DNA from: an uncultured Limosilactobacillus sp.
GTDB lineage: Bacteria > Bacillota > Bacilli > Lactobacillales > Lactobacillaceae
Direction: 5' to 3'
NCBI GenBank assembly: GCA_944327195.1
Contig: CALVGV010000011.1
Span: 1-57,207 of the forward strand
DNA: 57,207 nt
The position numbers and the translations under genes were made by a program. This document shows, in pieces, positions 35,648 through 37,023 of this stretch. The notes under the pieces are model-generated. The model made no database searches, had not been told where the DNA came from, and was given only the letters and a program-made list of their open reading frames with translations. The stretch's first letter is position 1. Each line of letters opens with the position of its first letter.

Positions 35648-35676
35648 TTGACGCCCCCGCCAAGAAAGGGTATATT
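35648..35676 (+). promoter_or_regulatory. Promoter of the cysteine leader and transsulfuration gene
   Basis: TTGACG (35648-35653) and TATATT (35671-35676) are separated by exactly 17 bases. This is one of the best promoter matches in the window. Transcription would begin near 35683. Confidence 0.8.
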
Positions 35677-35707
35677 TAAGCCATCATTTGAAAGGAGGAA
35701 CTTTAGG

Positions 35708-35785
35708 ATGATCACGACTCAATTCGCAGCTGAATTTTGTTGTTCCCGGCGCGCTGATTGCGGAGCCGGCTCTTTGGCATTCTAG
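35708..35785 (+). CDS. Cysteine-rich leader peptide (25 residues)
   Basis: An ATG nine bases after AGGAGG opens a 25-codon frame that ends at TAG (35783-35785). It contains adjacent Cys codons 11 and 12 (TGT TGT) and a third Cys at codon 18 (TGC), a very high share for a short peptide. It lies between a strong promoter and an intrinsic terminator in front of a cystathionine gamma-synthase/lyase gene. The expected role is to sense charged tRNA-Cys: ribosome stalling at the Cys codons would favour read-through. Confidence 0.7.
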
Positions 35786-35804
35786 AGTTCCCGGCGAAGG
35801 AATT

Positions 35805-35839
35805 GGCGCTAGCGGTGACTGACCGTTGGCGCCTTTTTT
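35805..35839 (+). terminator. Attenuator terminator before the transsulfuration gene
   Basis: GGCGCTAGCGGT (35805-35816) pairs over 12 positions (two G-U) with ACCGTTGGCGCC (35822-35833), followed by TTTTTT. Upstream, GTTCCCGGCG occurs twice (35742-35751 and 35787-35796). Either copy can pair with GCCGG at 35765-35769, giving possible alternative folds. Confidence 0.75.
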
Positions 35840-35880
35840 ATACCCTCGTCCCCCCACGCTTACCCGAAAGGAAGATCAAA

Positions 35881-37023
35881 ATGAAGTTCAACACCCTCTT
35901 AATTCACGGCGGCAATTCCGAAGACCCAACCACCGGGGCCGTTTCCACCCCAATCTACCGTTCCTCCACCTTCCACCAGCACGTCCTCGGCGGCGAGCCC
36001 AAGTGGGAGTACTCGCGGACCGGGAACCCGACCCGGGCCTCCTTGGAGAAGCTGATGGCCGAGCTAGAAGGGGGCCTGGCCGGCTTCGCCTTTGCCTCCG
36101 GGTCGGCGGCCATCCACGCCGTCTTCTCCCTCTACTCGGCCGGGGACCACTTCGTCGTCGGTTCCGACGTTTACGGCGGGACCTTCCGGCTGATCAACAA
36201 GGTTCTTAAGCGCTTCGGCCTCGAATTCACCGTGGTTGACATGCAGGACCTCGCAGCGGTGGAGGCGGCCATTCAAGACAACACGGTGGCCATCTATCTG
36301 GAAACGCCAACCAACCCGCTCCTGCAAATCGCCGACCTGGCGGCTATCGCCAAGATCGCCAAGGCCCACAGGGTAAAGACGATCGTCGACAACACCTTCG
36401 CCACCCCGTACAACCAGAAGCCGCTCCAACTCGGGGCCGACATCGTGGTCCACTCGGCCACCAAGTACCTCAACGGCCACTCTGACCTGGTTGCCGGGAT
36501 CGTGGTTACCAACGACCAGGAAATTGCCGACCAACTGGCCTTCCTGCAAAACTCGATCGGTTCCACCCTCGGACCGGACGATTCCTGGCTCCTGCAACGG
36601 GGGATTAAGACCCTCGGGGCGCGGATGCGGGTTCACCACGAAAACACCGCCGCCGTGGTTGACTTCCTGGAAAAGGACCCGCGGGTGGCTCGCGTCCTCT
36701 ACCCGGGGCTGGCTAGCCACCCGGGCCACGAAATCGCCGCCAAGCAGATGAAGCACTTTGGCGCGATGGTGTCCTTCGAGCTGCAAGAAGGCCTCAGCGC
36801 CAAGCAGTTTGTCGAAAGCCTCAAGGTGATCGACCTGGCCGAAAGCCTCGGCGGGATCGAAAGCCTGATTGAGGTCCCGGCGGTGATGACCCACGGTTCG
36901 ATCCCGCGGGAAATCCGCCTGCAAAACGGGATCAAGGACGAGCTGATCCGCCTCTCCGTAGGGCTGGAGGATCCGGACGACCTGATTGCCGACCTCAAGC
37001 AGGGGCTCGACCAACTGAACTAA
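35881..37023 (+). CDS. Cystathionine gamma-synthase/gamma-lyase family PLP enzyme
   Basis: This is a transsulfuration enzyme of 380 residues. The PLP lysine is in [36 protein letters not shown] and the closing [13 protein letters not shown] are family signatures. Synthase, cystathionine gamma-lyase and beta-lyase cannot be separated safely by eye. The cysteine-rich leader peptide upstream suggests control by cysteine, which favours a cysteine-forming gamma-lyase role. The ATG at 35881 follows AAAGGAAG by eight bases. Upstream in-frame sequence is the leader region and is not protein-coding in this frame. Confidence 0.9.

Follow-up and report, generated by a model that had tools for sequence, protein, structure and literature searches.

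A conserved cysteine leader peptide and competing RNA helices point to transcription attenuation of cysteine genes in Lactobacillaceae

In the Firmicutes T-boxes dominate, and both T-boxes and SAM (S-box) riboswitches control sulfur amino acid genes in many members of the phylum. As of 2010, amino-acid-specific leader-peptide systems were said to be known from Proteobacteria and Actinobacteria only (PMC2965389). In the trp and his attenuators of Proteobacteria the sensing codons cluster in a leader ORF, which is followed by hairpins that compete and by an intrinsic terminator ahead of a biosynthetic target (PMC9413887). Firmicutes histidine leader peptides are likewise attenuators in a phylum where T-boxes prevail; they are placed in bacilli, Peptostreptococcaceae, Lutispora, and Erysipelotrichales, and the passages drawn on here name no Lactobacillales lineage (PMC2965389, PMC9413887). 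Two systems described in other bacteria involve cysteine codons. Polycysteine uORFs of mycobacteria and other actinobacteria place a run of Cys codons before cysteine genes, one of them preceding cbs in Bifidobacterium longum, and have no conserved terminator and, by the title of the report, are leaderless (PMC1262725). The uORFC-8-2 family possesses tandem Cys codons (usually 14-15) and a 3'-end terminator, has been proposed to act by transcription attenuation, and is found exclusively before cysS in Rhodobacterales (PMC8632094).

Regulation by cysteine has also been reported for the cysK2-ctl1-cysE2 genes of L. paracasei. Their expression is log2 2.9-3.2 higher in cysteine-deficient than in methionine-deficient medium, a comparison of two deficient media against each other, and their 5'-UTR shows high read coverage; an antisense RNA is likewise reported there, earlier work cited in the same paper has cysteine repressing these genes, and the mechanism of their induction without cysteine is termed 'yet to be discovered' (PMC6004538). 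According to that paper, Liu et al. 2012 listed, ahead of the cystathionine synthase/lyase genes of lactobacilli, a palindrome that might serve in regulation. The account of the L. paracasei 5'-UTR, in the parts used here, mentions neither a leader ORF nor an antiterminator (PMC6004538).

Here, we describe a leader with Cys codons in a 57,207-nucleotide stretch of an uncultured Limosilactobacillus genome (contig CALVGV010000011.1; hereafter the window) and the family of Lactobacillaceae leaders to which it belongs. It shares its general plan with the trp and his attenuators but differs in that the signal would be cysteine and the host belongs to the Lactobacillaceae, and in that the hairpin P1 and one antiterminator arm lie inside the ORF, with the stop codon behind that arm. 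Unlike the mycobacterial uORFs, the window leader has both a terminator and a Shine-Dalgarno sequence. Its relatives precede genes for cysteine synthesis and uptake-type genes in Lactobacillales, which sets them apart, by description, from uORFC-8-2.

All features of the locus are on the forward strand. A sigma-70-type promoter, TTGACG-N17-TATATT, lies at 35648-35676 and agrees with the consensus at 10 of 12 positions; four promoter-like sites occur in 34500-37500 against 0.6 expected from shuffles. Transcription is predicted to start about 25 nt ahead of the leader ATG at 35708. The Shine-Dalgarno sequence AGGAGG (35693-35698) is 9 nt ahead of this ATG, and the ORF (35708-35785, stop codon 35783-35785) has 25 codons, homologous leaders in other genomes, and Cys at codons 11, 12, and 18. 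Codons 11 and 12 (TGT TGT, 35738-35743), which correspond to adjacent Cys codons in relatives, are the likely sensing codons. An intrinsic terminator with six T residues (35805-35839) is placed between the leader ORF and the first gene; its stem (35805-35833) has 12 bp, 8 of them GC, and terminator-like sites as such are unremarkable in this region (8 in 34500-37500, with 4.5 expected from shuffles). The gene that follows (35881-37023) matches the Cys_Met_Meta_PP family (PF01053, E 4.6e-157). Since its best NCBIfam models, PRK06176 and PRK07671 for cystathionine gamma-synthase and gamma-lyase, are each below their cut-offs, we class it as a probable cystathionine gamma-synthase/lyase type. The promoter, the AGGAGG with its 25-codon, three-cysteine frame, the 12-bp terminator, and the transsulfuration gene had all been named in a preliminary description of this DNA, and each was recovered. 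Folding indicates that the leader RNA is more stable than shuffled sequences (z -3.4). The minimum free energy (MFE) fold joins the Shine-Dalgarno and start region (35697-35710) to the stop region (35778-35791) through about 14 bp, a pairing that could silence leader translation while the RNA is free of ribosomes.

The preliminary description had seen no T-box or SAM riboswitch signature, and a search of 35600-35900 agrees, with no Rfam match at E <= 1 and thus neither a T-box (RF00230) nor a SAM aptamer. One rival reading makes a T-box or SAM riboswitch the actual sensor, with no role for the small ORF; control of sulfur amino acid genes by such elements is common in Firmicutes, and the source genome itself has 25 T-box matches, 3 of them over the family cut-off. 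Two T-box matches lie near paralogues of the window gene, one (C48:3240-3472) about 70 nt before the paralogue on contig C48 (2057-3169, minus strand) and the other (C5:24579-24819) about 0.9 kb before the paralogue on contig C5 (25744-26994); the window gene itself has the leader peptide. No Rfam match, however, was found at the window leader, at the leaders of eight other loci, or at the leader-bearing loci among 20 more, and neither contig of the source genome that carries a leader (C11, that of the window, and C35) has a T-box match. A riboswitch explanation therefore has next to no chance of being correct. The sole Rfam match in the whole window is RF03014 (Transposase-1 RNA) at 27483-27542, away from the leader; it follows a C-terminal TnpB-like (OrfB/Cas12f-like) fragment at 26809-27429, of which it may be the guide RNA. 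Elsewhere in the window two large proteins of similar size (37168-39360 and 24007-26295) show, on inspection by eye, Walker-like motifs. The former is weakly matched by a PLD-like family and, in PADLOC, by ZacB and PbeA; the latter has no match in Pfam or PADLOC at E <= 0.01.

The window alone is suggestive, and it is the comparison with relatives that carries the case. In a genus sample of 50 genomes the gene was present at E <= 1e-150 in 25, and a Cys leader was found for 23 of these 25 orthologues, either before the gene itself or before cysK heading its operon. Orthologous leaders lacking Cys codons had been put forward in the preliminary description as grounds for rejecting its reading, and the orthologues gave no such refutation. 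At the two others, L006 and L016, there is no Cys leader within the 1.5 kb scanned. Leader and gene can be well separated, by about 1.2 kb at L021 and by 1193 nt at L117. A scan of named genomes for relatives of the gene contributed 80 of 84 loci, and among the 62 loci from both sources with at least 60% identity a leader passed the filter at 53, 43 of these leaders being distinct in sequence. Leaders were found in named species of Limosilactobacillus, Ligilactobacillus, Paucilactobacillus, Companilactobacillus, Loigolactobacillus, Lactiplantibacillus, and Weissella; the genus and family names of some further genomes are inferred from named relatives.

The nine loci at which the filter failed (L006, L016, L022, L030, L032, L040, L042, L060, L061) include two pairs that are each a single place (L006 with L030 and L022 with L040), and L042 covers only 1042 bases upstream. 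The closest relatives of the window gene, L006/L030 and L032 (Candidatus L. faecipullorum, L. alvi), are among those without a leader, an apparent loss of control over the gene. The gene is retained at these loci, as is, judged by eye, the patatin-like gene next to it. In L. coleohominis (L022, L040, L119; L022 is one of the 23 orthologues with a leader) a stop codon comes straight after three Cys codons; the terminator and most of P1 are still present.

The typical leader peptide is MFNKQLINATVCCCGSRLMRPTVWRAYF, of which the window peptide is a diverged member. Conservation of the stretch CCCGSRLMRPT across genera might suggest a small Cys-rich protein with a function of its own, in which case the hairpin would be just a terminator or a site of processing. 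The conserved residues, however, are encoded by the very codons from which P1 and the antiterminator are built, residues outside the stretch vary widely, and the L. coleohominis leader (L119/L022) ends right after CCC and keeps the terminator and most of P1. We regard a functional small protein as very improbable and attribute the conservation of the stretch to the RNA structure formed by its codons.

This structure consists of competing helices. As the preliminary description had noted, the repeat GTTCCCGGCG occurs at 35742-35751 and again at 35787-35796, with GCCGG (35765-35769) in between, and alternative folds can be drawn. Copy 1 contributes to hairpin P1 (35746-35769), an anti-antiterminator in which CCGGC at 35746-35750 pairs with GCCGG at 35765-35769. 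The antiterminator itself would form between a 5' arm, GCGCTGATT (35751-35759), and a 3' arm, AATTGGCGC (35801-35809), which overlaps the first five bases of the terminator stem and covaries in the family. The pairing of GCCGG with copy 2 (CCGGC, 35791-35795; helix 35765-35795), proposed earlier as the alternative to P1, did not stand as the main antiterminator: relatives conserve the pairing that captures the terminator 5' arm, and the copy 2 pairing was therefore demoted to an inner extension of the 35751-35759/35801-35809 helix. This inner helix is part of the MFE fold of the nascent RNA with a ribosome at Cys 11. The P1 loop had been considered as a pseudoknot partner and was abandoned once the full 11-bp pairing was seen. 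The original observation is thus confirmed and its interpretation supported, with the antiterminator corrected.

Across the family the predicted principal antiterminator has 11 bp and joins codons that closely follow the Cys run to the terminator 5' arm. In the reference leader L009, nt 41-65 form P1, and nt 48-58 (GCGUCUUAUGC) alternatively pair with nt 121-131 (GCAUAAGGCGC), the last five bases of which open the terminator stem. The antiterminator excludes both P1 and the terminator, and all three covary. In a MAFFT alignment of 40 leaders (A1), chosen with the Cys filter and accordingly all possessing two adjacent Cys codons (40/40), the antiterminator positions were paired in 92.7% of cells, compared with 23-57% when the arms were slid, and 8 of 11 pairs showed double changes (30 double-change cells; 6.6 in shuffles). 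The number of antiterminator pair types in A1 was not beyond that of shuffles (17 versus 15.2, with 88 of 500 shuffles as high). Double changes were also present in 5 of 9 P1 pairs, one P1 position being unpaired in 33 of 40 leaders, and in 13 of 14 terminator pairs. The rows of the window and of L027 are out of register in A1.

To avoid circularity, both of these rows were left out of a second model, which was built from the other 38 leaders and whose sole structure is the terminator stem. The alignment made with it (A3) comprises 78 loci (84 matches, 78 full length). Here 90.0% of antiterminator cells were paired, against 29-54% when slid, and 10 of 11 pairs had double changes, in 96 cells versus 35 in shuffles. 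Many rows in these alignments are close kin and are therefore not independent events. Among the 63 full-length rows outside the 40-leader set, 51 paired at 9 or more of the 11 positions and 55 at 8 or more; 8 had fewer than 8. The window row pairs at 10 of 11 positions in the family register, which corresponds to 35751-35759 with 35801-35809. The antiterminator arm of L027 stays unaligned in A3, and 8 bp pair by eye. The antiterminator duplex of the window taken alone is not significant (118 of 2000 shuffles were as good).

We collected 107 distinct leaders, 90 with CCC, 10 with CC, and 7 with CxC, classes that are conditional on an ORF filter requiring two clustered Cys codons; 106 are from Lactobacillaceae and one is from Enterococcus faecalis. 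In a simple duplex test 72 of the 107 were within the best 5% of shuffles and 35 missed that level, a result that understates pairing in Lacticaseibacillus, whose terminators were begun a few bases early. In 71 of these 72 the antiterminator arm follows the first Cys codon closely, starting 13-17 nt behind it.

These results bear on whether the inverted repeat is instead a transcription-factor binding site. The palindrome is real and conserved, and three LysR-family regulons have been described for cysteine and methionine metabolism in lactic acid bacteria (PMC3616900). A binding site, however, leaves unexplained both the Cys codons and the covariation of the 5' half of the palindrome with codons about 40-65 nt upstream. 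The tails are also one-sided, with a mean of 5.9 T per 7 nt after the stem against 2.3 A per 7 nt before it in the 107 leaders, as counted with a stem finder that itself favours T tails. We judge a binding site to be very improbable. Translation attenuation, or polarity due to leader translation, in place of transcription termination has precedents in the mycobacterial Cys uORFs without conserved terminators (PMC1262725) and in the cysteine genes of M. smegmatis, which are said to be under translation attenuation (PMC13236596). In the leaders described here a covarying intrinsic terminator stands between leader and gene, and the high read coverage of the L. paracasei 5'-UTR (PMC6004538) also argues against control at translation, which we consider highly improbable.

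The anatomy, conservation, covariation, gene context, and spacing computed for these leaders favour a ribosome-mediated transcription attenuator that senses charged tRNA-Cys, a reading to which we assign a probability of roughly 0.9. When cysteine is plentiful, the ribosome would run to the stop codon and either P1 or the ribosome itself would block the antiterminator, so that the terminator (35805-35839) would form and the transsulfuration gene would be off. When Cys-tRNA-Cys is scarce, the ribosome would stall with its A site on codon 11 or 12 and melt P1. If 15 nt are allowed from the first base in the P site to the 3' edge of a ribosome, the edge of the stalled ribosome would lie at about leader nt 43 (codon 11) or nt 46 (codon 12). 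The antiterminator arm of the window begins at leader nt 44, and nine of its bases (35751-35759) would be left free by a stall at codon 11 or six by a stall at codon 12. The free arm would pair with 35801-35809, taking the terminator 5' arm, and RNA polymerase would read on. Sensing would most likely fall to Cys 11 and 12. At Cys 18 a stalled ribosome would sit on the antiterminator arm itself, and codon 18 is therefore not expected to induce. In the source species, we infer that the leader is translated, that ribosomes stall within it, and that read-through and a response to cysteine follow.

Folding of nascent RNA is consistent with this scheme. From nt 44 to the terminator 3' arm, as with a stall at Cys 11, the window RNA folds into the complete antiterminator (-29.0 kcal/mol), and with codon 12 in the A site it folds into a shorter form (-20.4 kcal/mol); the stalled nascent RNAs of three relatives likewise fold into the antiterminator. 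Two other folding results do not favour it. With a completed terminator, the terminator state is the MFE in the stalled case too (-42.6), and the same holds in relatives; the incomplete transcript without a ribosome, in the window and in relatives, also prefers the antiterminator. The switch must therefore be kinetic, decided during transcription. The locus combines an ORF with a ribosome binding site, clustered Cys codons, a terminator, and a covarying, exclusive antiterminator, as do leader-peptide attenuators, and the spacing and folds, with the footprint size assumed above, indicate that a stall at the sensing codons would leave the antiterminator arm free.

The window copy is a diverged family member. 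With a covariance model trained without the window (R2), 35708-35839 is the only match in the window at E <= 10, with a modest score of 20.1 bits (E 0.0042 for 119.7 kb). That score is exceeded by the 22.9 that the search gave to a partial match at L030 (positions 60-164), 2.3 kb upstream of a gene without a leader. R2 is the fair test, since model R1 was trained on all 40 leaders, window included, and its 44.6 bits there are no evidence. R1 has two strong places in the source genome, the window and C35:14311-14468 (L110). The latter, at 93 bits and outside the R1 training set, is a second, canonical copy of the leader: it carries MRQIKANQCCRGSRLMRPTFWHGFN, of the CCRGSRLMRPT form, and precedes cysK (match below cut-off) and cysE (TIGR01172, above cut-off).

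Across the family R1 found a match at E <= 0.01 in 143 of 397 genomes and 27 of 40 genera, weak matches often being bare terminators. In the subset of 92 matches that was inspected (L110, L111, L114-L203) a clustered-Cys leader was present in 85, under 12 of the genus labels inspected. Six were dropped by eye as unrelated terminators (L194, L198, L199, L200, L202, L203), L202 even though it had passed the ORF filter with a CC frame. L193 (around 1700), also dropped, has a one-Cys ORF, possibly a decayed leader, ahead of an ABC permease. L201, with a Cys-rich ORF without CCC and 29.7 bits, was kept as doubtful. The SD-spacing filter missed L175 and L211-L214. Within 1.5 kb of the 85 leaders, the nearest downstream gene, scored among the five classes sought, was cysK/cbs at 43 loci, a transsulfuration gene at 27, an ABC permease at 10, and a member of the MetA/HTS family at 4, with a contig end at 1. 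The nearest downstream gene is thus of a cysteine-related class in 84 of 85 leader-bearing model matches, or in 85 of 87 if L193 and L202 are kept. The permease and MetA/HTS contexts were absent from the training set, and for the permeases a cystine permease was the best model in three of four tested, below cut-off.

A similar arrangement occurs outside the family. The Enterococcus faecalis record has MTKKQASPFLETESCCCMVQNSAAYSFVMGK... and a terminator ahead of cysK and cystathionine gamma-synthase. A search of 295 genomes of the order with this leader gave matches in five, all under the family label f3, probably Enterococcaceae; one is identical and four are weak (E 5e-4 to 2e-3). Read directly, the four weak genomes have MAQRTVL(I/V)ADCCCMVQ... 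and a terminator before cysK-transsulfuration genes. Leaders of the CCCMVQ type were found at L208 and L210-L214, including the four that the spacing filter had missed, and the annotation of the E. faecalis plasmid record lists its leader as a hypothetical protein.

A leader of the family also precedes cysteine genes of L. paracasei. On plasmid pLC2W the leader MSQSMFNAINCCCRTTRFWRCSAC is followed by a terminator and then by cysK-ctl-cysE, and this terminator is the exact motif published for strain FAM18149, which is present in L179 and L181 as well. By this identity, the palindrome reported for cysK2-ctl1-cysE2 would be the terminator of a leader of this Cys family. L. casei ATCC 393, L. rhamnosus, and another L. 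paracasei plasmid possess near-identical leaders with a slightly different stem. The entire attenuator-cysK-ctl-cysE cassette is found on Lacticaseibacillus plasmids (L204, L205, L206, L209), with lac genes nearby in L204, L206, and L209 and an IS5 transposase in L204 and L206.

In the literature consulted, in which coverage of subscription papers, including Liu et al. 2012, was thin, we did not find a Cys leader described in Lactobacillales. By working principle the Lactobacillaceae Cys leaders are most probably a new family of leader-peptide transcription attenuators, covarying and cysteine-specific, which recurs before several cysteine operons and has no Rfam match where tested. They offer a testable answer to how genes for converting methionine to cysteine are induced in L. 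paracasei when cysteine is lacking, a matter that bears on cheese flavour, and they recast a reported regulatory palindrome as a terminator. Cysteine supply in Lactobacillaceae is probably organized as a leader-attenuator regulon in which Cys leaders of a single family stand before cysK/cbs, genes for transsulfuration and cystine-type uptake, and MetA/HTS-type genes, although T-boxes are available to these genomes at other loci. By the same reading the regulon has a cousin in the Enterococcaceae, where CCCMVQ leaders precede cysK-transsulfuration operons; the device would therefore be old in the order, and it would probably provide the missing mechanism in L. paracasei.
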